64,000 bases of DNA, taken from assembly GCA_029531795.1 (NCBI GenBank), contig JAPEIS010000004.1, forward strand, positions 1,240,001-1,304,000. The letters are read 5' to 3'. Position 1 is the first letter of the stretch. Every line of letters starts with the position of its first letter. The notes below the pieces were generated by a model, which saw only the letters and a list, made by a program, of their open reading frames with translations, did no database searches and had not been told where the DNA came from. This stretch comes from Sclerotinia nivalis (lineage: Eukaryota > Ascomycota > Leotiomycetes > Helotiales > Sclerotiniaceae). The translations under genes and the position numbers were made by a program. Shown in pieces: positions 4,801 to 43,274 of this stretch.

Positions 4801-5969
4801 CTGGTGATCATACGATCCGGCTTTGGGATACAGTAACGGGCAAATCGCTTCAAACGCTCGAGGGTCATTCTGGTCGGGTTACTTCAGTTGCTTTTTCATC
4901 AGATGGTACAAAGGTAGCTTCAGGCTCTGATGATCATACGATCCGGCTTTGGGATACGGTAATGGGCAAATCGCTTCAAACGCTCGAGGGTCATTCGAAT
5001 CGGGTTACTTCAGTTGCTTTTTCATCAGATGGTACAAAGGTAGCTTCAGGCTCTGATGATTATACGATCCGGCTTTGGGATACGGTAACGGGCAAATCGC
5101 TTCAAACGCTCGAGGGTCATTCGAATCGGGTTACTTCAGTTGCTTTTTCACCAGATGGTACAAAGGTAGCTTCAGGCTCTGGTGATTATACGATCCGGCT
5201 TTGGGATACGGTAACGGGCAAATCGCTTCAAACGCTCGAGGGTCATTCGAATCGGGTTACTTCAGTTGCTTTTTCACCAGATGGTACAAAGGTAGCTTCA
5301 GGCTCTGATGATTATACAATCCGGCTTTGGGATACGGTAACGGGCAAATCGCTTCAAACGCTCGAGGGTCATTCAGGTTGGGTTAGTTCAGTTGCTTTTT
5401 CATCAGATGGTACAAAGGTAGCTTCAGGCTCTGGTGATTATACAATCCGGCTTTGGGATACGGTAACGGGCAAATCGCTTCAAACGCTCGAGGGTCATTC
5501 GAATCGGGTTACTTCAGTTGCTTTTTCACCAGATGGTACAAAGGTAGCTTCAGGCTCTTTTGATCATACGATCCGGCTTTGGGATACGGTAATGGGCAAA
5601 TCGCTTCAAACGCTCGAGGGTCATTCAGGTCGGGTTACTTCAGTTGTTTTTTCACCAGATGGTACAAAGGTAGCTTCAGGCTCTTTTGATCATACAATCC
5701 GGCTTTGGGACATAGCGACGGGCAAATCGCTTCAAACGCTCGAGGGTCATTCGGGTTTCGACGCATCCTCAATCTTTCAACAGTACTCTATATCAAACCA
5801 TTGGATAGTTGAAAAATCAGATGGAGAAATGCGAAATATTCTTTGGTTACCTTCAGATTATCGGTTCTCTTGTATATGTTTTTATAAGGGAATTATAGCT
5901 ATGGGATTTTCAAACGGTAGTATTTTCTTTTTGAAACTTGAAAATGGAAACAAATTTCATATTATCTAA
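1834..5969 (+). CDS. STAND/NLR receptor: HeLo-like N-terminus, NACHT, about 11 WD40 repeats
   Basis: Three exons keep one open frame: 1834-2316, 2369-4075, 4131-5969, about 1342 aa. Introns are 52 and 55 bp with GT..AG ends and both sit at phase 0. Residues 1-150 resemble the helical fungal STAND N-terminal (HeLo-like) domain. Residues 210-228 hold a Gly/Asn motif, GLQFNASNLNSGGGPININ, like that ending the upstream hydrolase. NACHT follows, with Walker A GDPGKGKT (near residue 288) and Walker B LIIDALDEC (near 390). From about 4346 there are eleven near-identical 42-residue WD40 repeats, then a unique C-terminal tail. Family role: cytosolic sensor whose repeats bind a ligand, opening the NACHT to oligomerise and trigger a death effector. 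There are no stops or frameshifts, in contrast to the ruined neighbours, so it is probably functional. Ligand and effector are unknown. Confidence 0.88.
4346..5755 (+). repeat. 126-bp tandem repeats encoding WD40 units (11 copies)
   Basis: Eleven tandem 126 bp units each encode 42 residues containing SDGTKVASGS and TIRLWDT. Units differ at very few nucleotides. The variation clusters at the two residues after GHS (DS, GR, NR, GW), at the S/T of the next V-x-S, at S/P before DG, and at the two or three residues around ASGS-x-D-x-TI (GDD, DDH, DDY, FDH). Such high internal identity indicates ongoing unequal exchange between units, known in Podospora HET-D/E/R-type genes. Confidence 0.9.
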
Positions 5970-7525: not shown

Positions 7526-8959
7526 ATGGACGAAGAGACCATTATGGTCGATACTATCCCATCCAGCTTTCCAAGAATCATCTTAGGTACTCCAACTCAA
7601 AAGGAGGTTGCACCATTCCTTTATGAGGAGAGTCTCAACAATCCCCCATTTATCCTTTCTAGCCCAACCCCCTTCCAATCCTTCAACTCCTAAGCTCAAT
7701 ACAATATTCTTAACTCTGATGATCCTTTCAAATCATCTACTATCTTTTCTATACTCCAATTCAATAATAAGCGAAGAAGATAATTCAGCCATTCAGAATC
7801 TAGCCCTACAAAACCAAAGGAAACCATTCAAAAAGCGAAAGACCTCTTCATTCTAGCTATCTCTATAGAAAAAGATATCGAAGAACAATCGAAGATCCTA
7901 AACCTAATCGAAATATTCTGCGAATATCTTGAAAAAGGGAAACTTATTAAAGCTTCAAATATTATCACTTCACAGATCTCCTATTTCGAAAACGCAACCA
8001 AAAGAATTGAAAAACAGGCTAATTACTTTTCCAATCTTTCCAATCATTCAATTACTCCTCCAATAAATCCTTCAACAATAAACAAAGAAAGCTATATTTC
8101 AGTTACCAAAACGATAAAGGAATAGAAAGTAATTACAAAGGGAAACTCTACAAAACAAAAGCCTACAGAACAAAAGGAAAATACCCTTAATAAACGATTG
8201 ATTCTTATCAATCCATTTCTTCATCAATCTATTTCCTTTATACCATTACATACAAAAAACAAAATCAATGAAGCCTTCAGAAAGGCTGGTATCAATGGAC
8301 CTGTTATTTCAGCCATTACTACAACTAGAAGCAACAACATTATTTTAACCACTAATAGCCCTTTCAATGTACAATTCCTAATCGAAAAGAAAGAAATCTG
8401 GAATCAAATCATCCGATCAGAGAGAATACAAATCGATAAACCATGGCATAAAGTTATTATTCATAAAATTCCAATCAAGGAATTCTCAGGCCCGAAAGGT
8501 ATAGATCTAATTAAAGAGGAAATTAAGATCTTTAATTCAGGTCTTGTTCTTATGGGTACTCCCTATTGGTTCACCAATACCTCCAAAAGAGTTAATCAAC
8601 AAGAAGGAGCAATAGTCATTGCATTCGCTACACAAAAGGAAGCAGAGATAGCTATTCGAAAAAGGCTATATATTGCTGGTATTAGCATCAGAGTCGAACG
8701 ATTCTATCCTTCCACCCCTTCCTCCCAATGCAATAAATGTCAAGGATTCGGCCACAACGAATCATTTTGCAAAAAACCTCCAGCCTGTGGTCTCTGTAGC
8801 AACAATCATGCTACAGCCGGTCACTTTTGCTTAATTTGTCAAGCTAAAGGCAAACCCTGTCAGCATTTAGTGATTAAATGCGCTAATTACAAAGGAGAGC
8901 ACAAAGCTAATTCCAAAGCATGCGAAATATACCAAGCAACTATAAAGAAATCCTCCTAA
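7526..8959 (+). pseudogene. LINE ORF1 (gag-like, CCHC zinc knuckles)
   Basis: The start is probably ATG 7526. The frame is broken around 7690-7830 and by a TAG near 8123, and the last 253 codons (8198-8959) are open. The open part holds an RRM-like segment and then Cys/His knuckles: CNKCQGFGHNESFC, CGLCSNNHATAGHFC and a third Cys-rich unit. This matches the nucleic-acid-binding ORF1p of Tad/I-clade elements. Its TAA stop (8957-8959) is followed directly by the ORF2 ATG, an arrangement that suggests termination-reinitiation. Confidence 0.72.
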
Positions 8960-10605
8960 ATGCTGTACAACAATACACGCATTCTTCAAATCAATTTAAA
9001 CAAGAGCTCTCAAGCTACCGAAAGCGCTCTTCAACTTGCTTTAGAACTCAATATCGATCTTATAGTCATTCAAGAACCCTGGATCCTCTCGAATCCCGAA
9101 AAAGACTACTCTTCAACTAGATCGATCGCTCACTCCAGCTACTCTCAACTCCTTCCCAATAATCCTTCGAACCTTCGCCCTCGTACAATGATCTACATTT
9201 CGAAAGGTTACAAACCGCTAGTAGCCCTAGCATCCAATTCTCCAAAAGACCCAGATATCCAAATCATTGATATCACTCAGGGAAATCATACAACCCAATT
9301 ATTCAACATATACAACAAAGCCGATCAAGCTCAAAAGAAAGGCTACACTATCGAAAGATGCCTCTTCAATATCCCTTTCACTCATTATACCATTCTCACA
9401 GGAGATTTTAATTCTCACCACCCTTGATAGAATCCCTTTTCTAATAAAAGCTTCAATGCCGATCAATTAGCCAAATAGTTTGAAGATCACAATCTCACCC
9501 TTCTTAATAAAACAGGGATTAGTACCTTCTATCGAACAAATATAACAAATCCAAACATTCTTGATTTTACTTTAGCTACTGAAGCGATATCCTCCAATAT
9601 TATTGATTGGCAAGTTCTTCCTGATCTTAGATCAGATCATTTAGGAATCTTATTTGAAATTAAAAGCACCGGAATTCGTTCAATAAATATCGTTTCGTTA
9701 ACAAGATTCAATACAAAACAAACGGATTGGAACAAATTCACAAACACCCTCGAATCAAAGCTATCGTCTTCAACTATCCTGAATTCTAATGATTACCTCA
9801 ATATCACTACTTTAGAATCCAATTCACTTGATTCTCTTCTCGACAAAAACTAGCAAATGCAAACACTGGATAAAGCTGCAATAGAATTCACCCGAATAAT
9901 CACCAATTCGGCTGAAATCAGTATACCGAAAATCAAGTCAACCAAAAGGGCAAAGCCCTGATGGTCTTCAGAGCTGAAAACTCTTCGGAAACGATTCGCA
10001 AATGAATATGAAAATACTAAACGATACCCTGAAGACGATATATTCAAGAAAATATATCAATCAGCAAGGAATCATTACTTTCAAGCTATCAAAACAGCGA
10101 AAAAGAATCATTGGAACGAATTCCTAGAAAAAGAGGATACCCAAACGATCTTTAAGGCAATATCATATACGAAAAATCTTCAAACCGAAAGGATTCCGAA
10201 TATCCGATCCAATTCCTCTCAACTCGAAAGCTCTTTCGAAGGGAAATGCTCAGCTTTCAGATCTGTTCTATTCCTTCCCCCTCCAAGTACTACAATACCC
10301 AAATGGGAAGGATACAAACAATCGAAAAAGTCCGATTAATCTAAATATACGGAAAATGAACTCTTTAATACTTGTTCAACTAAAATCAAAGGAAAGAGTC
10401 CGGGCCCAAATGGAATCATTCAGGAGATCATTATTCGAACTTATAAAGCAATCCCAAAAGCTTTCTTTACCCTTTTCAGCAATCTGATTAATCTTGGTTA
10501 CCATCCTTCTTATTGGAAACAAGCTACAAGAGCGATACTCAAGAAGCCTTCGAAATCAGATTATATTATTCCAAAAGCTTATAGGGTTATTGCCCTTTTC
10601 AATTG

Positions 10606-11973
10606 ATTGATTGATTGATTGATTAAATTAACGTCTACACTGAGTCTAAGACTATCTAAGACGGCTAGAGGCTCTTACGAACCCCTAACAGATAACATAA
10701 TGAAGGTAAGCTGGCTTATAGGCCTGGCTAAGTACATGATTTAAATGATTGAGATAAACTCAATCTTTTGAGTTGAATGGGGGAAGTGAAAACTAATCCT
10801 GAGGAATAATCCCGCCCTACAAACGCTGAAGCATATTATAGAGATAACAAAAGAAATAATATTTATTTAAAATTGTAGAAGGATTTACACCCTTCTTTCA
10901 ATTTCATCATTCGTCTCTTCCCCTGCTCCTTTTGCTCCTTTTGCTCCTTTTGCTTCTACTTCTCCTTCTTCTCCTTGTATTCGTTTGAGATACCATGATC
11001 TAGTAGCTATTCTTGTTGTATCGATGAACTCGAGGGTTTTGATTGTTCCTGCTTTGGTATAAAGTAGGTATTTCATAGTGAGTCTAGATAATGAGTTATT
11101 TTCTTTGAGTTTTCTTCTTGCTTTCTTATATAAAGGGCAGCTGAGTAATAAATGATCAGGAGTTTCTTTTTTTCCACATCTACATTTATCATTTGCCGAG
11201 ATTCCAAAGTGTTGTAAATATGATTTGAAGTATCTGTGACCAATCTTTAATTGGAAAAGGGCACTGATGATATTTCTTTTGATATTCCCTAGGATACCGA
11301 TTTTTGAGCTGGTTTTCCAAGGGTAAGTTTTTGCATATGATGATGATGATTGTCGGGGGTTGTTTGTATTGAGAAGGATAATCCAATCTTCAGATTTCGT
11401 TCTTTTGATATCCATTCCTAATGAGGCAAAGCTAGTTTCGTTCGACGATGATCTTAGTCTTGTAGCTTCTTTTGCAAGGGCATCGGCTAGTTCGTTTCCT
11501 TCCATCGAGGTATGCCCAGGGACCCAATTGAGGGAGATCTCGGCTCCTTTCCTTATGAGAGTTTCTGTGGCCTTGATTGCTCTGATTTGGCATGTTTGAC
11601 CAGGAGCATCCGAAGGTATTTTCAATCGGTAAAGTCCGGCCTGATTATCAGAGTAGATCTTGAATTTCTGGCCTGATTGAGCTATGGAACTTGCGTATTC
11701 GATTGCTCTTGTGACTCCAAGAAGTTCACCATTATACACTAATTGATTTACACCAATATTGAGTGTTTCTTTGTGAAGAACTTGATCGCTGGCCGAAATA
11801 GCGACGATCCCGATTCCTACTCCTATCCCTTCCAAGGTTGACGAAGCATCTGTATATATAACGATGGTGTTTTTGCTTCTATATTTGAAAGCTAGATTGT
11901 GTATGATTGCAGCATCTTCCTTGGGTAGTTTGCTGATATTGACTTTGTATGGAATATCCCTTTTCCAAGGGGG
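10606..11973 (-). mobile_element. Nested 5'-truncated LINE (RNase H end plus 3' UTR)
   Basis: A minus-strand LINE copy is flanked by a 14 bp target duplication, GCCCTTTTCAATTG (10592-10605 and 11974-11987), and carries the family's tetranucleotide tail at its 3' end (10602-10622, TTGA on plus). It is 5'-truncated within ORF2 just before RNase H. It closely matches the copy at 40632-42296, so the insertion is recent relative to its host element. Confidence 0.9.
10885..11970 (-). CDS. LINE ORF2 C-terminus: RNase H and zinc motif (partial)
   Basis: An open frame without stops encodes the RNase H domain (TDAS, YNGELLGVTRAIEY, SDNQAGLYRL, GHTSMEGNELADALAKEA) and a C-terminal CRCGKKETPDHLLLSC zinc motif, followed by a Gly/Ala/Lys-rich tail. 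It is truncated at the N-terminus by incomplete reverse transcription, so it has no start of its own and is not expected to make a functional protein. The lack of stops marks it as younger than the host element. Confidence 0.75.
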   Translation of the reverse strand, partial: PWKRDIPYKVNISKLPKEDAAIIHNLAFKYRSKNTIVIYTDASSTLEGIGVGIGIVAISASDQVLHKETLNIGVNQLVYNGELLGVTRAIEYASSIAQSGQKFKIYSDNQAGLYRLKIPSDAPGQTCQIRAIKATETLIRKGAEISLNWVPGHTSMEGNELADALAKEATRLRSSSNETSFASLGMDIKRTKSEDWIILLNTNNPRQSSSSYAKTYPWKTSSKIGILGNIKRNIISALFQLKIGHRYFKSYLQHFGISANDKCRCGKKETPDHLLLSCPLYKKARRKLKENNSLSRLTMKYLLYTKAGTIKTLEFIDTTRIATRSWYLKRIQGEEGEVEAKGAKGAKGAGEETNDEIERRV

Positions 11974-12438
11974 GCCCTTTTCAATTGTTTAGACAAAATT
12001 AGTGAAAGAATTCTAGCTCAGAGGTTTAGCTTTCTAGCCGAAACTACGAATCTATTATATCATTCCCAAATGGGCAGAAGACAAAAGAAATCAGCCATCG
12101 ATACAGCAATCTTGCTCACCACCGAAATCGAAAGAAATACAAGAATCAAAAAGAAAACCTCAACCCTTTTCCTAGATGTTAAAGGGGCCTTCGATTATAT
12201 ATCCAAGAATCGACTTTTAGATATCTGCAAGAACCTCAATCTCCCAATTAATCTTATTACATGGATCTCATCATTTTTGGAAGAAAGATTACTCAAACTT
12301 TCGTTTGATGGTCAAACCGAAGCCTTTAAATCAATCAACACCGGAATCCCTCAAGGAAGTCCAATCTCACCAATCCTCTTCCTAATCTATATTCGAGATC
12401 TCTTTCAATCGAATTCGGTTGAATATCTCTTGTATATT

Positions 12439-12531
12439 GGAGGACAAGACTCAACACCTGTACGCGGTGTCCTCTACGAACCTCCAGCTCTTTTATTTAA
12501 TTATTAGAGTCTGCAGAGCTAAGTTTGAGTC
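12439..12531 (+). ncRNA. Predicted HDV-like self-cleaving ribozyme
   Basis: The double-pseudoknot layout fits by eye. P1 is GGAGGAC (12439-12445) with GTCCTCT (12469-12475), 7 bp closed by a G-U wobble. J1/2 is AA. P2 is GACTCAA (12448-12454) with TTGAGTC (12525-12531). P3 is ACC (12456-12458) with GGT (12466-12468) around a 7-nt L3, TGTACGC. P1.1 is GT (12460-12461) with AC (12476-12477). P4 lies in about 12482-12516. J4/2 is GCTAAG with candidate catalytic C12519, as in the antigenomic HDV ribozyme. P1 begins at the element's first base. HDV-like ribozymes are known at the 5' ends of some non-LTR elements. Not verified by folding or activity. Confidence 0.62.
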
Positions 12532-13221
12532 ATTTGATGGAGTCGTGGTGATTGGAAGAGGAAGAGGCACCCGATCGCGATGTTTTTTGCCTCCGAGTTG
12601 GCTGATGGCAAAGGCCAGATCTCGGTTTTTTGACAGTCGCATTATCGGATTGTGCTTTCTACAACACTACTTTTATTACGAAACAAAGGACAACACCATC
12701 ATCTACGACAATATACTACAAAATCATCTCCAAGATCCCTCTGGGGCATCGGGCGCGATTTATCAAATTCGGTTTTAAGGTTCAGACTTTACCTCCTTCG
12801 ATTCGAATCAAAACAACAACAATTTATATACTTGGAGGAGCTGTGTAGAACGACCCGAGCTAATAACGTATCTGCCATAGAATTCGGTGGAGGATATACT
12901 ACATATAGGATTGGGGCACCTTGTAGGATCAATATCCCCATGGTTTGGAGGGTTCTATGAAATCGATATTAGGCAAGGCATAACCGTTGGAAAGTTACAA
13001 ACAGGACAAAGAGTTGATGTGAAGGAAGGTTGTTTGGATTTGATTGATAGAGAGATCGGATTTGGAAAATTATGAGTATAATGCTTTGATTGGTATTTTT
13101 ATCTTTATATGCGATGCCGTATAGAGGTCGGGCTTTGCTCCCTAATATTAGTTTTCACTTCCCCCATCAAAAATATATACAAACCTGTATGCTATTTAGA
13201 TAGCACTACCTATAGCCATCT

Positions 13222-13247
13222 GTTAAGAGCTCGATTGAGCTCTTAAC
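13222..13247 (+). ncRNA. 3' stem-loop of LINE/retroposon tail
   Basis: A perfect 11 bp stem, GTTAAGAGCTC/GAGCTCTTAAC, with loop GATT lies just before the conserved CCGTCCTAGATAGTC block and the tail. The same position in the other copies holds a stem of different sequence. It is a candidate recognition element for the LINE reverse transcriptase. Confidence 0.6.
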
Positions 13248-15462
13248 CGTCCTAGATAGTCTTTGACTCAGTGTGGACGTTAATTAAATCAATCAATCAA
13301 TCAATCTCTTGTATATTGATGATATAGCTTTGATCATTCATTCCTTAAGCTGGAAAAAGAATATTATCTTTTTCGAAAAAGCAGCGAAACAGATCTATAC
13401 TCTTAATGAGAAAAACACTATTCAATTCGATTTAGCAAAAACGGAGCTAATGCACTTCTCCACCTTCAAATACACAAAAGACGCTTCAATCAAGCTCCCA
13501 AATTCTGAGATTATACAACCCTCAGTACTAGTTAGATGGCTAGGTATTTGGTTCGACCCCGGCCTCAATTTCAAACAACATATTACAATCCGAGCTACTC
13601 AAGCTAAAGCCTCTTTCTATCAAATGGCCAGATTAGCCAATACTAAGAAAGGATTTAGTCCTAAAGCTTTAAGGCAACTCTATATAGTATGTATTACCAG
13701 TATAGCTGATTACGGATCAATCATTTGATGGAAAGATCAAGCCCAATTCAAAAAGATTCTTCAATTACTCCAGAATCTCGCTCTTCGAAAGATACTAGGA
13801 GTATTCAAAACTTCTCCAATAAAACCAATAGAAGTGGAAGCTGCTTTGTGCCCTCCGGAAGTCAAATTAAATATTGGAATCAGACAATATACTTTCAGAT
13901 TATTGAAAATCTCACCTTCCCACTCTGTTAATCTAATTTCCAAAAGATTGATTGCTGAAAAAGGAGATCAGAGCTCGATAATAACCTCTCGAAGAAAACT
14001 ACCTAAACCTACTCAGCTTGAGAAGATCACAAATTCAATCGAAGAAGATGTCGATCCTTTGACTCTAGAGAAAATCGATCATTTTCACTTTCCTTTTTGA
14101 AAAAGGGATACTCTATACAAAGTCAATATCAGCAAGCTAGCAAAGGAGGATACTGCAATTGTTTATAACCTTACATTCAAATACAAATACAAGAATATCA
14201 TTACAATATATACTGATGCCTCATTTACTTTGGATGGAATTGGAATTGGAATCGGGATTGCAGTTATTCTATCGAATGGTCAGGTTTCACATCAGGAAAC
14301 CATCAATATTGGGATGAATCAGTTTGTCTATAATGATGAACTTCTTGGAGTCACTAGAGCAATCGAATATACTAGTTCCATTGTTCAACTAAGCGAAAAA
14401 TTCAAAATCTACTCAGACAATCAAGCCGGATTATACCGATTGAAAACACCCTCTGATGCTCCTGGCTAGATATGCCAAATTAGAGCAATCAAAGCTACAG
14501 AAACTCTCCTTAGAAAAGGAGCTGAAATCTCCTTTAATTGGGTTCTAGGGCATACCTCTGTTGAAGGAAACGAATTGGCTGATGCTTTGGCAAAAGAAGC
14601 TACAAAACAAAGATCATCATCAAACGAAACCAGCTTTGCTTCATTGGGAATGGATATCAAAAGGACGAAATCCGAGGAATGGAAATCCCTTCTTAATTCA
14701 TCCAAATCAGTCTATTCGAAAATATACTCCTGGAAAACTAGCTCAAAGATCGGAATTCCAGAAAACACCAAGAGAAGTTCTATTAGCGCTTTGTTTCAAT
14801 TTAAAATCGGTCACGGATACTTCAAATCCTACTTACAACGATTCGGAATCTCATCAAATGATAATTGTAGATGTGGAAAGAAAGAATCCCCAGATCATCT
14901 TCTTCTCAATTGCTCTTTATACAAATCAGCTAGAAGAATACTCAAAACAAACAATCCTACCTCTCGACTTTCTATGAAATATCTACTTCACACCAAAATA
15001 GGAATCATCAAAACCCTCGAATTTATCGAAACAACAAAAATAGCCACCAGACTATAACATCTTGCTAAGATACAAGAGGATATAGAACAAGAAAACGAAG
15101 GAGAAAAGAATGAATCAGAAGAAAATGGTTAATTGGATCAATTTGATCAATTTGGTTATTTTGATCAACTTACCCCTCTATGCAGGGTAAATCATTCCAA
15201 TTTCGAATTATATCATATTTCATTTGTTATTTTCTTTATTATATACAAAAGTATTTGTAAAGCGGGCTTTGTTCCCCAGGATTAGTTTTCATTTCCCCCA
15301 TTCAAAATTAGTAGATTGAGGTTATTTCAATCTCTTCAAATTGTACTAGCTACAGCCTAATACGGCCAGCATTTCACCAGTTGTTATTTGTTAGGAGCCT
15401 ACAAAGCTTCTAGCCGTCTTAGATAGTCTTAGACTCAGTGTAGACGTTAATTCAATCAATCA

Positions 15463-19714: not shown

Positions 19715-22700
19715 TTAGATAATATGAAATTTGTTTCCATTTTCAAGTTTCAAAAAGAAAATGCTACCGTTTGAAAATCCCATAGCTATAATTCCCTTAT
19801 AAAAACGTATACAAGAGAACCGATAATCTGAAGGTAACCAAAGAATATTTCGCACTTCTCCATCTGATTTTTCAACTATCCAATGGTTTGATATAGAATA
19901 TTGTTCAAAGATTGAGGATGCGACCAAACCCGAATGACCTTTGAGCGTTTGAAGCGATTCGCCTGTAACTGTATCCCAAAGCCGGATTGTCAGATCGTTA
20001 GAGCCTGAAGCTAATTTTGTACTATCTGGTGAGAAGGCAATTGACCAAACCGAATTCGAATGACCCTCGAGCGTTTGAAGCGATTCGCCTGTAACTGTAT
20101 CCCAAAGCCGGATTGTCAGATTGGTAGAGCCTGAAGCTACTTTTGTACCATCTGGTGAGAAGACAATTGACTGAACCGAACCCGAATGACCCTTGAACGT
20201 TTGAAGCGATTCGCCTGTAGCCGTATCCCAAAGCCGGATTGTCTCATCGTCAGAGCCTGAAGCTACTTTTGTACCATCTGGTGAGAAGGCAAAGGCAATT
20301 GAATGAACCCAATCCGAATGACCCTTGAGCGTTTGAAGCGATTCGCCTGTAGCCGTATCCCAAAGCCGGATTGTTTTATCGTCAGAGCCTGAAGCTACTT
20401 TTGTACCATCTAGTGAGAAGACAATTGAATGAACCGAATCCGAATGACCCTTGAGCGTTTGAAGCGATTCGCCTGTAGCCGTATCCCAAAGCCGGATTGT
20501 CTCATCGTCAGAGCCTGAAGCTACTTTTGTACCATCTGGTGAGAAGGCAATTGACTGAACCCAACCCGAATGACCCTTGAGCGTTTGAAGCGATTCGCCT
20601 GTAGCCGTATCCCAAAGCCGGATTGTCTCATTGGTAGAGCCTGAAGCTACTTTTGTACCATCTGGTGAGAAGGCAATTGAATGAACCGACTCCGAATGAC
20701 CCTTGAACGTTTGAAGCGAGTCGCTTGTAGCCGTATCCCAAAGCCGGATTGTTTCATCGGCAGAGCCTGAAGCTACTTTTGTACCATCTAGTGAGAAGGC
20801 AATTGACCAAACCGAATCCGAATGACCCTCGAGCGTTTGAAGCGATTCGCCTGTAGCCGTATCCCAAAGCCGGATTGTTTCATCGGCAGAGCCTGAAGCT
20901 ACTTTTGTACCATCTGGTGAGAAGACAATTGACTGAACCGAACCCGAATGACCCTTGAACGTTTGAAGCGATTCGCCTGTAACTGTATCCCAAAGCCGGA
21001 TTGTCTTATCGTCAGAGCCTGAAGCTACTTTTGTACCATCAGAGCCTGAAGCTACTTTTGTACTATCTGGTGAGAAGGCAATTGACCAAACCCAACCCGA
21101 ATGACCCTCGAGCGTTTGAAGCGATTCGCCTGTAACTGTATCCCAAAGCCGGATTGTTTCATCGGCAGAGCCTGAAGCTACTTTTGTACCATCTGGTGAG
21201 AAGACAATTGACCAAACCCAACTCGAATGACCCTCGAACGTTTGAAGCGATTCGCCTGTAACTGTATCCCAAAGCCGGATTGTCTTATCGGCAGAGCCTG
21301 AAGCTACTTTTGTACCATCTGGTGAGAAGGCAATTGACAAAACCGAACCCGAATGACCCTTGAACGTTTGAAGCGATTCGTCTGTAGCCGTATCCCAAAG
21401 CCGGATTGTCAGATCGATAGAGCCTGAAGCTACTTTTGTACCATCTGGTGAGAAGGCAATTGAATGAACCGAACTCGAATGATTCTCGAACGTTTGAAGC
21501 GATTCGCCTGTAGCCGTATCCCAAAGCCGGATTGTCTTATCGTTAGAGCCTGAAGCTACCTTTGTACCATCTGGTGAGAAGGCAATTGACCAAACCAAAC
21601 CCGAATGACCCTCGAGCGTTTGGAGGGCGGCACTCCAACTTGATCGTGTCCTTGATATTTTATAAATCCAACTCGGGATACATTTTTGAAATGTTTTTCG
21701 AATAATACTATTCTCTGGAGCAAAGAAAAGGGCTGAGCAATAGATTTGAAGAGGAGCTTGTTCAATTCCTACTCGGTTATAAAGGGCGAAACGTTTGGCA
21801 TCATGAATATAGGCGAAAAGTTCAGGAGCTTTTTCAACCTTTATATTTATCAGTTGAAGTTATTTGAAGCTATTTGAAGTTATTTTGACTTACCGAGATA
21901 TAATTTTCTAAAGAACTTATTGCAACAATACACCCAGAAATGTTTTCCATCAAGCTCATGACCTCCAACCAATGCAGCAAATGCTCTGTTAGAAAATTAT
22001 AGACTTTGTTATTATTTTGAACATGGTTTTCTGTTTTTGGGGGATTTCCACCCATAAAGTGATTGACCCAATAGGTACATGAATATCGTATATATGCTAA
22101 TGGATCAGGATCGGGTTGCTTGACTTTGTTAGTAGGAAAGCCTGGATGACGCAAATCGTATATGTTCTCTTTCAATATATTGCTCATTTCTATTATCGAA
22201 TTTAGAAATATCTTCTCATTTACCTTGCCGATCCCATTTGGAAATATTGTCTCAGCAGCATTTTCTAATAGGAAATCCTTTGCCGACTTATGAACGAAGA
22301 AGATACTCTGATTGCGAACGATCAGAAAGGAGCCACAAAGTTGAATGATTTCTTCCAAATAAATCTCCGATCCGATCAGACACGCCAACTCGCAGAGCGT
22401 AATAGGTCGAAAGGCTACAATTACAATAGCTATAAGCTGGAGACAGAGCTTAGTTACTCCATGCTCTTTTATATTTAGAATTTGCTGTAGCATGCGTTCG
22501 TATAAGGGATCCAACTCTCGAGGGTAATAATCTTGTAACATTGAAGTCGTGAAGAATCGAAGTTCTTCAAGATTTTGGCAGACCAAAGCCACCCAAAGGA
22601 AGGTCCCGTTCGCATTCTCTAGGAGATACGATTCAACCGTCTTTCTATTTCTTTTAATATTTTTCTTTATCCTCGCAAGCTTTTCCACCCTATCTCTTAC

Positions 22701-24140
22701 ATACCAATCGACAGCAATAGATACTGTGTGGGTATTTAATTCGAGATTGAGCGACGTTCTCTCCTCAATCGGCCCTAGTGCCTCTTCAATTTCAGACCAG
22801 TTACGACTAGAGACAAGCCACTTAACGCGAGGAAACTCAGTTAGACTGGAAACAATCAGACGAAGTAATTTGGCCATATCCTTTTCGCATTCGTCAAGTG
22901 CATCAATAATCAAGATTATTGGCTTCAAACTCTCATCATGCAAGATATTCTTCAGAATATTAGAGAGCGCCACCCACGCATTAATACCTTCAAATAACTG
23001 CTTCCCTGGCACCTCATATTCCTTTTGTAAATGCCGAATGAGGGAAGGCTGTTCATCTAAGAGCATATAAATAAGGCCACGTAGGACGGAGATAGCACTA
23101 TTAATGGTATCGACGTTGCTTTGGCAGAAGAAATAGGCTAAGGCGTAATTATTTGATATCCGTATTTCGTCTATGATACCACATAACAACATAGTCTTGC
23201 CTTTGCCAGGATCTCCTCTCACCCATAGCAAGCGGTTGCTTTGGTCGTTGTACCATTGTTGGTATTCCGCGTTTTTGAAGACCCATTCGTATACCTTAAG
23301 GAGCAATCCTCCTTTCAGTTCCTCGATACGTTGCTTGTCCTTTCGTGGATCGGTAGTGAACAGATCAGTTAGGCAGCGCTTATCTGGGGAGGGAGGATTA
23401 TCGGGATTACTCTCGATCTCTCTGTTGAGCCTCCTGAATGCTTTATCCTTTCCCTCGCCATAGATAACTGACATAGATACTCCAAAGATACCAAGCAAAC
23501 TATATGCTGCGTCTTCTTCTCTCGTCGAAATTCTGTTTTCCGCCCATTTCATTCTATCATCAACACTAAACTTCGATAAAGGAACTCCTTGGAGCGCTTC
23601 AATAGCAATTCCCGTGATCTCATGTATAATCAACTTCAGAGATTCCCTATCACCAAGCCTACAACAATCCCGTGAAAAGAACTCGATTGATATTGGAGCG
23701 AGGAGTTCTTGGAGCGTCCATCCTCTTGTAAACCATCGGCTGGCCCGAAAACGCTTTTCCCACATGCTTTGTGGTTGCTCTACACCATTTTGAACGACCT
23801 CTACATCTGATAAATAGACATAGCATTTTCTAGCCTTCCCATACCAACGGAACATAGAGTTTAGAGATTCGCTCAACTCAGGGTCGCTCGTCTTTTTAAT
23901 GCAACAAGTATCCACCCAGAAGTAATCGATGTTGTCACAGGCAGCCTGTTTTCCGCAAAACTGGAGCTTCTCATAACCGGTTTTTGCTTTGCCATTACCT
24001 GAGTTTATATCTTCGAAATTGACTTCCTGCTCGTCACTTCCCCATGTATGTGAGAGAATGGCATAAGGAGGAATATTGTTATCTAATAGTGCTTTAGTGA
24101 GCCGATATCCGTCAGCATTATCGCACTCTAGCAAGCGCAT
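19715..24140 (-). CDS. STAND/NLR receptor: HET, NACHT, about 13 WD40 repeats
   Basis: Two exons, 24140-21894 and 21838-19715, are separated by a 55 bp intron at phase 0 (about 1456 aa). I chose ATG 24140 because MRLLECDN is the canonical HET start and the upstream extension begins with TTG. HET signatures are YAILSHTWG, YFWVDTCCI and RGWTLQELLAP. NACHT has Walker A GDPGKGKT and Walker B LIIDALDEC. Thirteen 42-residue WD40 repeats and the same C-terminal tail as the first receptor follow. The architecture equals that of Podospora HET-D/HET-E/HET-R, which trigger heterokaryon-incompatibility cell death through the HET domain after ligand recognition by the repeats. The gene is free of stops in a compartment of dead sequence, so it is likely functional. 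The recognised partner is unknown. Confidence 0.9.
19925..21635 (-). repeat. 126-bp tandem repeats encoding WD40 units (13 copies)
   Basis: Units vary mainly at the two residues after GHS (GL, SS, GS, SW, DS, ES, DW, NS), the residue after the following V (W, H, L, Q) and the residues after ASGS (ND-K, ID-L, AD-E, TN-E, DD-K). Two units carry small internal duplications: unit 5 repeats DGTKVASGSD (near 21030-21060), and unit 11 has an extra AF (near 20288-20295). Both are in-frame slippage products. Confidence 0.88.
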
Positions 24141-24773
24141 TTTAGGATTTGAAGTATGCAAAGTTGAGAGACCAGTAGATAATGATGAAGTACACAACAG
24201 GAATCAATATAGCGCTGATATCTTGAAGTTGCCCTTGATCATAGATTATCTCGAGAAATTTGTGTGACAACACAACTATTGTGAGGTGTCGAAGGTTATT
24301 ACCTTTTGGAATGTGGGGTTATGCAGGTCAATCTGACTCATGGCGAGAATGCTCCGACGTTACATTGTCTTTCTGGCTGTATTACCGACTTTCTCGCCAT
24401 TATATGTATTATTACGATGATTTCCAACATGGCTAGGGAAAAGATATCTGATAGATGGAAATTGCAATAAGATTAGAACAGAACCGGCAGCAGCTCAGTC
24501 AAATATAGGACAGACATCAATTCATATCAGATATACGTAGCTTATATATGATGAGTGGCGGCTGTTGAATGAGCGACGTCTTCATGATGTTTACCAACAC
24601 CTCAAATACAATCAAGGTTATCTTAAATTAGTGAAAGACGAAAAAGCATCATGTGATAAAATTGTGTCCTTCCATAACTTTTTACCACGATTAGCGAAAT
24701 CAATTCTGAAACATATATTTTGCCCACTACTTTGACCTGAATCTTCAGTATATAATACATAAATAGATATTAT
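24141..24773. other. 5' flank of second NLR
   Basis: The first 57 bases extend the HET reading frame to a TTG only and are treated as leader. The rest is AT-rich, with no recognised gene or element. It presumably contains the receptor's promoter. Confidence 0.45.
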
Positions 24774-42690: not shown

Positions 42691-43127
42691 CACCTAGGAA
42701 GGCATGCAAAGGAGCTAATGAATGAGTTCGAGCTGAGGAGAGTGGTGTCTCCCAGTTGCTTTTCACTAGTATGAGGACCCTTTTGCTGTGCTGGAGGTAA
42801 TCTTGACGGAGATGACTCTTGGCCTTTGTGGGAAGTGGGTGTCGGAATAGCAGATTGGGTCGAAGAAGAAGATTATATCAGTGGGATGCTTTAATTAGCA
42901 AGGGATAGGGGGAGAGCGAGGAAGGAAAGGTCTTAGAGGATGAAGATATCGGGCTTTGTTCCCCAGTATTAGTTTTCACTTGCCCTCAATCAACATTTCA
43001 AGGGTTGAAAAGAAACCCAAACTATACAAACTGTATGCTAACTAGCATACAACTCCCCATAGCATCAACTAGGAGCTCATAGAGCCCCTAGCCGTCCTAG
43101 ATAGTCTTAGACTCAGTGTGGACGTTA

Positions 43128-43158
<31 letters not shown>
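42690..43158 (+). mobile_element. LINE-tailed 3' fragment with unrelated body
   Basis: From about 42952 it carries the shared 3' block (CGGGCTTTGTTCCCCAG.., hairpin CTAGGAGCTC/GAGCCCCTAG near 43069-43091, GACTCAGTGTGGACGTTAA) and a (TCAA)n tail to 43158. The preceding 250 bp do not match the LINE ORF2 or the 12.4 kb retroposon. The 5' border is uncertain. It cuts into the ribozyme-headed copy that follows. Confidence 0.62.
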
Positions 43159-43159
<1 letters not shown>

Positions 43160-43274
43160 CTCTTCCAATTACCACGATTCCATCAAATGATTTAAACTTA
43201 GCTCTGCAGACTTTCATAAGAAAGCTGGAGGTTCGTAGGATGCACTGTATACAGGTGTTAAGTCTTCGCATCCC
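43159..43274 (-). mobile_element. Head of a second ribozyme-type retroposon (truncated)
   Basis: On minus, 43274 to about 43159 aligns with 12439-12560 of the nested retroposon: the same head, then TCATTTGATGGA-TCGTGGT-ATTGGAAGAGG. The rest is cut off by the LINE-tail fragment on its left. Confidence 0.7.
43189..43274 (-). ncRNA. Predicted HDV-like ribozyme, second copy
   Basis: P1 is GGGATGC (43274-43268) with GCATCCT (43243-43237), again 7 bp with a terminal G-U. Four of its pairs differ from the first copy by compensating changes. P2 GACTTAA pairs with TTAAATC (43195-43189) at 6 of 7 positions. P3 is reduced to two pairs. P4 CTTTC/GAAAG replaces CTCT/AGAG. J4/2 GCTAAG is unchanged, with candidate C43201. 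Decay suggests this copy may be weak or inactive. Confidence 0.55.

Follow-up and report, generated by a model that had tools for sequence, protein, structure and literature searches.

HDV-like ribozymes at the 5' ends of retroelements are already known from animals (the SIDEs of Drosophila) and from trypanosomatids (PMC3414825, PMC4035085). The R2 SIDEs and R2/R1 hybrid SIDEs of Drosophila are described as short elements in which a 5' HDV-like ribozyme is joined to the 3' end of a LINE. In the hybrids, the ribozyme comes from R2, the 3' end and the target come from R1, and the duplications are of 14 bp; SIDEs are located at rDNA sites, and the same paper calls them rare (PMC3414825). NARTc and SIDER are dispersed and non-autonomous, and they begin with Pr77, an HDV-like ribozyme; NARTc is presented as a truncated L1Tc with the same 5' sequence as L1Tc (PMC4035085). 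R2, which is a non-LTR element, also starts with an HDV-like ribozyme, typically with a P1 of 6 to 7 bp and a P2 of at least 5 bp; cleavage falls at the precise 5' junction in Drosophila and at position -28 of the 28S gene in some other species (PMC3774820). In fungi, 230 HDV ribozyme sites have been published, and such ribozymes have been reported in 26 species without a stated role. Their gene associations were termed "widely variable", and the main text of that report makes no link to transposons ("transpos" occurs 0 times). In these fungal variants, P2 and P3 are separated by an additional base, usually C, the closing pair is typically C-G, and loop E replaces part of P4; in vitro, cleavage takes place at the P1 base (PMC5640933).

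We analyzed a 64,000-nucleotide stretch of Sclerotinia nivalis DNA, referred to here as the window. A first-pass annotation, made from the letters of this DNA, had proposed an HDV-like ribozyme at the very 5' end of a retroposon. We consider it very probable that a non-autonomous retroposon dependent on a LINE begins with an HDV-like self-cleaving ribozyme, at positions 12439 to 12531; the RNA of this retroposon would be cut from longer transcripts and copied by a LINE. The features are collected in Table 1.

Table 1. Positions in the window of the retroposon, its predicted ribozyme parts, and the second ribozyme copy
Feature	Position	Strand	Basis
RT part of the LINE copy hit by the retroposon insertion	12070..12438	+	Pfam RVT_1, E 2.1e-15
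Left target-site duplication, ATCTCTTGTATATT	12425..12438	.	Repeated at 13304-13317
Non-autonomous retroposon ending (AATC)n, 865 bp	12439..13303	+	Bounded by target duplication; further copies found
HDV-like ribozyme (predicted)	12439..12531	+	Descriptor match, base-pair table
P1 5' strand GGAGGAC, predicted cleavage just 5' of 12439	12439..12445	+	Base-pair table
P2 5' strand GACTCAA, then single C at 12455	12448..12454	+	Base-pair table
P3 ACC / L3 TGTACGC / P3' GGT	12456..12468	+	Base-pair table
P1 3' strand GTCCTCT	12469..12475	+	Base-pair table
P4 hairpin arm	12482..12518	+	RNA fold, base-pair table
J4/2 CTAAGT, predicted catalytic cytosine C12519	12519..12524	+	Sequence
P2 3' strand TTGAGTC	12525..12531	+	Base-pair table
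3' tail with terminal (AATC)n, related to LINE 3' ends	13129..13303	+	blastn against LINE tails in window and genome
Right target-site duplication, ATCTCTTGTATATT	13304..13317	.	Second copy of the 12425-12438 repeat
Second, diverged ribozyme copy	43188..43274	-	Homology to first retroposon, base-pair table
Second copy, P1 GGGATGC/GCATCCT	43274-43268 / 43243-43237	-	Base-pair table
Second copy, P2	43264-43258 / 43195-43189	-	Base-pair table
Second copy, J4/2 C	43201	-	Base-pair table; J4/2 CTAAGT unchanged

Every structural element that the annotation had listed was found again in the base-pair table: a 7-bp P1 with a G-U pair, a 2-nt J1/2, a 7-bp P2, P3 ACC/GGT around TGTACGC, P4, and J4/2 CTAAG. 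Numbering the ribozyme from G1 (12439), we read the complete HDV order of P1 (closed by the G-U), J1/2 (AA), P2, the single C, P3 (3 bp), L3 (7 nt), P1', J1/4, P4, and J4/2, with P3' flush to P1', so that P1 to P4 would form the nested pseudoknot in HDV order. The P4 strands are CTC-CAG-CTCT and AGAG-T-CTG-CA-GAG. Position alone marks C12519, in CTAAG directly after P4, as the predicted catalytic cytosine. In the antigenomic HDV ribozyme, the conserved U23 and G28, five bases apart, are part of the HDV-like signature, and C76, U77, and G80 are named as well (PMC3386971). In L3 of the retroposon, U is the first base and G the sixth, spaced like U23 and G28, and the C, U, x, x, G of CTAAGT has the spacing of C76, U77, and G80. 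As read from the sequence, a P1.1 of 1 to 2 bp (G22-C39, U23-A38) could also form; it is short, and it is the same in the second copy in the window.

The retroposon interrupts a LINE copy within its RT reading frame, and the host LINE sequence resumes after 13317. In the window alone, the duplication can be read one base longer (G); we assigned this G to the retroposon because right-hand duplications elsewhere (e.g., L002, L006, and L008) precede other bases. The longest open reading frame (ORF) wholly within the retroposon encodes 102 aa. Eleven ORFs of at least 30 aa overlap the element, and the five scanned gave no Pfam match (E up to 1). With its LINE-like 3' tail, the retroposon thus looks non-autonomous, in agreement with the earlier statement that it has no reverse transcriptase. 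We also considered a tRNA-derived SINE, which is ruled against by the lack of a tRNA-like head in 12400-13350 (ARAGORN).

To these data we added further copies. The 42 copies comprise the window copy, 39 from a search with the ribozyme region (the best 40 of 172 candidates scored), and 2 from a search with the 3' tail (the best 40 of 285). Duplications of the type left by target-primed reverse transcription, 11 to 18 bp long with at most one mismatch, were present in 39 of the 42, the right copy following (AATC)n. The annotation had P1 starting at the first base after the duplication, and this held well beyond the window: the duplication abuts G1 in 37/42 copies, and one extra base intervenes in 2 (L016 and L022). 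A 14-base repeat with two mismatches, below the score cutoff, abuts the same place in L085, and no target duplication was seen in L017 or L029. The target duplications thus fix the element start independently of the ribozyme. Most of these copies had been chosen by the ribozyme, so the places picked by the 3' tail alone were taken as a second sample. In 39 of these (best 40 of 285), the ribozyme 34-mer stands 657 to 661 bases upstream. The 40th is L085, which aligns from base 3 to base 865 and is heavily mutated by C>T/G>A changes. Truncation of the 5' end beyond a few bases was therefore seen in 0/40 tail-picked elements, 39 being judged by position and L085 by alignment. Over the genome, the 5' ribozyme 34-mer occurs at 73 places with up to 3 mismatches, dispersed over many contigs. 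L085 (C4:1233730 region) lies about 6 kb upstream of the window; its target duplication is nearly identical to that of the window copy (2 mismatches) and similar LINE sequence follows, so it is probably a duplicate of the same LINE-plus-retroposon insertion.

How often would such a layout arise by chance? A descriptor with P2 of at least 7 bp gave 1 match on both strands of the window, against 0.16 expected (16 matches in 100 dinucleotide shuffles of the window). When P2 was allowed to be as short as 5 bp, the descriptor matched twice (12439 and 58925), which is not rare given 1.84 expected per window. When the layout was anchored at base 1 in shuffles of the first 140 bases of the retroposon, P2 of at least 7 bp appeared in 1 of 413,533 (about 2e-6), P2 of 6 bp in 5, and P2 of 5 bp in 29. 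A covariance-model search, the check that the annotation had named, did not come out in favor of the ribozyme: Rfam gave no match across the whole window at the gathering score, and with E up to 10 over 12300-12700 there was no HDV match and one weak snoRNA match on the opposite strand. This result counts against a ribozyme but is not decisive, since the published fungal variants broke the criteria of earlier searches (PMC5640933). The energy of the plain minimum-energy fold is unexceptional (z -0.89), and folding by itself does not single out 12439-12531; in the non-pseudoknotted minimum, P1 and P4 are formed, but bases 39-43 pair with 85-89, replacing P2. The unexceptional fold energy, the Rfam result, and a loosest descriptor that is expected about twice per window by chance speak for an alternative in which a transcription start site sets the 5' end, and P1 and P4 belong to an ordinary leader, used in RT binding or translation, whose likeness to the HDV layout is accidental.

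Evidence that bears on this alternative came from a second, diverged copy of the ribozyme in the window. Its homology to the first retroposon runs on to 43158, where a LINE-type tail on the plus strand ends. In P1, pairs 3 to 6 change from A-U, G-C, G-C, A-U to G-C, A-U, U-A, G-C, that is, four consecutive changes, all compensated, with the closing G-U, the second G-C, and the inner C-G kept. One P2 pair changes from C-G to U-A (T-A in the DNA), and the apical stem of P4 changes from CTCT/AGAG to CTTTC/GAAAG with a 4-base loop. Thus, compensatory changes were found in one diverged copy, in P1 (four pairs), P2 (one pair), and the apical stem of P4. Outside P1, P4, and a one-base insertion in J1/2, all differences are C>T or G>A. 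P2 and P3 each have one C.A mismatch, and bases of L3 are changed, with the conserved G now A; because of this damage, the second copy is probably dead. First-family copies differ too little to show covariation, which therefore rests on this one diverged copy. The expectation that further copies would keep the P1 pairing was thus mostly borne out, with one copy covarying, and failed in part for L085, which lost some of the pairing to C>T/G>A changes. On the plus strand, the element with the LINE-type tail (window 42944-43157) ends inside the second ribozyme copy; we sought a target duplication for this element and found none that was convincing, and its 5' end was likewise not found.

An ordinary leader structure is highly improbable in light of these data. 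It would have to account for an anchored chance of about 2e-6, for compensated P1 changes next to an unchanged J4/2 CTAAGT in the second copy, and for a first base that is the same in 37/42 copies while the LINE starts look ragged. Three independent findings support the proposal of a ribozyme at the 5' end: the predicted cleavage site coincides with the 5' end in 37/42 copies, the anchored layout occurred in 1/413,533 shuffles, and four P1 pairs are compensated. Structure, position, and covariation thus mark 12439-12531 as an HDV-like ribozyme, with its catalysis a prediction.

More relatives seem to exist. The pattern of the 3' half of the ribozyme occurs at 136 genome places against 73 for the 5' half, which indicates diverged relatives. 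The P1 pattern of the second copy was matched at C1:3865788, C2:1218877, and C5:308808 with 1 to 2 mismatches and, with 3 mismatches, at 15 others. Among 40 related places listed, relatedness begins only at query base 5 in 33 (84 to 86% identity). A third ribozyme-bearing family is represented by at least 39 places (39 of the 100 listed) with one identical 34-mer, TGAGAGTCTGCAGAGCTAAGATTGAGTCATTTGA, which spans the end of P4, J4/2, and P2' of the third type (e.g., C4:1202893-1202926, minus strand, and C6:316896-316929, plus strand). By alignment, this family differs from the first at its first bases. Within the 34-mer, no C>T/G>A change was found among the 39 places; as a guess, this would fit an element short enough to be spared by RIP. 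The two window copies represent two lineages with distinct P1 helices, and a third is set apart by alignment at its first bases.

Most differences between first-family copies are C>T/G>A (e.g., 100 of the 102 body differences in L030), as expected of RIP. The first 34-mer, within the ribozyme, is exact at 47 of its 73 places (up to 3 mismatches); two body 34-mers, matched to it for CpA+TpG count and G+C, are exact at 28/58 and 18/42. All 93 ribozyme bases are at the family majority in 28/42 copies, 40 of the 42 having been picked by ribozyme identity, and non-transition changes number 0 in the 93 ribozyme columns of the 42 copies against 0.02 to 0.7% per site in body blocks. That the ribozyme is better kept than the retroposon body is suggestive of constraint. 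We do not count this gradient as proof because 40/42 copies were ribozyme-picked and RIP looks weaker at both ends; a similar dip in changes occurs at the retroposon 3' end.

Two further explanations accept a real ribozyme. In one, its first 90 bases double as an internal promoter and the retroposon does not depend on read-through. Pr77 is a precedent, being described as both promoter and HDV-like ribozyme (PMC4035085), and the best preservation of the first 34-mer (47/73 exact, against 28/58 and 18/42) would fit. The same gradient, however, would result from weaker RIP near repeat ends, as the 3' dip illustrates, and ARAGORN found no tRNA-like gene in the retroposon, so that we regard an internal promoter as unlikely. 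In the other, the ribozyme is a fossil, active in the founder and inactive in present copies. The many copies with RIP-type C>T/G>A changes and the damaged P2, P3, and L3 of the second window copy point in this direction, but a first-half 34-mer that is exact at 47 genome places and the 28/42 copies that keep all 93 bases at the family majority (with 40/42 ribozyme-picked) make a fossil very unlikely.

Next, we compared the retroposon with the LINEs. Its last ~175 bases are related to LINE tails, so that the two share a 3' end; the LINE tail pattern, with up to 2 mismatches, occurs at 443 genome places. The LINE copies in the window contain RT and RNase H domains, whereas their endonuclease match is weak (20.6 bits, below the Pfam cutoff of 24.5). 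This LINE probably belongs to the Tad clade. The LINE ORF1 protein identified 30 loci. Of these, 25 extend to a common LINE 5' start, ACAACAAATTTCG..., and a sense-strand descriptor match at that start was found in 0/30, with two loose matches elsewhere (L048 and L059). Nor was an HDV layout present at the mapped LINE 5' end in 9 LINE-tail loci. The regions upstream of 7 more diverged ORF1 matches (L115-L121) gave one loose descriptor match, in L115. A scan of both strands with P2 of at least 6 bp gave an antisense-side match in 11 family-A LINE loci and single matches in L069 and L096, none of which starts at a definable element 5' end, and Rfam with E up to 5 on two LINE loci gave five weak matches, all far under gathering scores. 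The LINE copies with a visible duplication (4/6, judged by eye) have 3 to 12 variable bases between the duplication and ACAACAAATTTCG, so their 5' ends are ragged.

An internal deletion of the helper LINE as the source of the retroposon 5' end is ruled against, as the LINEs start with the unrelated ACAACAAATTTCG... and without a descriptor match. Since their starts are unrelated in sequence and lack the HDV layout, the ribozyme was not inherited from the LINEs examined; this comparison covers the LINEs found with ORF1 and a sample of the other LINE families. The first 100 or more bases of both LINE subfamilies are nearly identical and include a strong hairpin (ATTTCGAAGAA...TTTCTTCGAAAT); the LINE start also has ACAACAA, complementary to TTGTTGT about 115 bases on (5' ends located from ~637 in L040, from ~528 in L041, and at ~7340 in the window). 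Possibly, the LINE start is a structured 5' module of another type.

Other features of the window were recorded as well. LINE fragments at 10600-11835 and 8198-9427 lie near each other in opposite orientation, which suggests nested insertion or rearrangement of LINE copies. ORFs 4962-5969 and 19715-21598 carry very similar WD-type repeats and are near a HET/NACHT protein (21870-24197); such features typify genes of self/non-self recognition in fungi, and the HET/NACHT protein fits a filamentous ascomycete. The fungus is close to Sclerotinia sclerotiorum, with whose protein a transporter encoded in the window shares 96% identity.

According to our model, the retroposon would be transcribed as part of longer, read-through transcripts, in which the ribozyme would fold as a nested pseudoknot. 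The J4/2 cytosine C12519 and a Mg ion would cut just 5' of G12439, giving an RNA that begins exactly at retroposon base 1. A LINE reverse transcriptase would recognize the common 3' tail and insert a full-length copy by target-primed reverse transcription. An RNA that starts at base 1 and is inserted at full length would leave the daughter ribozyme flush with the target duplication, and the daughter copy would be ready for release from any transcript crossing the new site. Catalysis, read-through transcription, and LINE help are the steps that we infer.

The model points to a specific role that HDV ribozymes could have in fungi. It sets a sharp 5' end on a non-autonomous element against ragged 5' ends, without such a ribozyme, on the apparent helper LINE, and a single genome thereby lets protection against 5' truncation by a 5' ribozyme, and promoter independence, be tested. 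Truncated 5' ends occurred in 0/40 tail-picked ribozyme elements against 5/9 LINE-tail loci, which match only the last ~200 to 330 bp of the LINE and were chosen by tail variant rather than at random; the comparison is weakened because the retroposon is much shorter than the LINE, which alone favors full length. That a ribozyme is carried by the parasite and not by its apparent LINE helper would be a notable feature. Tentatively, and with somewhat less than even confidence, we propose that the HDV-like ribozyme is a mobile 5' module of LINE parasites that is missing from the LINE, and that the HDV ribozymes of the 26 fungal species are largely the heads of such retroposons.

Our literature search, made largely without subscription papers, returned no HDV-like ribozyme described at the 5' end of a fungal retroposon. 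Linking HDV-like ribozymes to fungal retroposons appears to be new, and the ribozyme type itself is known. Like the fungal variants, the retroposon ribozyme has a C between P2 and P3 (12455), one of the three hallmarks listed for them, but its closing pair is G-U rather than C-G and its P4 is a plain bulged stem without loop E (PMC5640933). As in R2, an HDV-like ribozyme heads a non-LTR-type element, with P1 and P2 lengths in the R2 range, whereas R2 has its own RT and targets 28S rDNA (PMC3774820). The element resembles NARTc and SIDER in being dispersed and non-autonomous with an HDV-like ribozyme at the 5' end, and it departs from the NARTc/L1Tc pair in that the LINEs with related tails begin with unrelated sequence (PMC4035085). 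The closest match by behavior is the R2/R1 hybrid SIDE, in which the ribozyme likewise does not come from the LINE that supplies the 3' end and the duplications have the same 14 bp as that of the window copy; in contrast to the SIDEs, described as rare and at rDNA (PMC3414825), the fungal retroposon is dispersed (73 places with the 5' 34-mer). Judged from sequence, the retroposon would work like a SIDE, yet it did not arise by internal deletion from the LINEs examined.
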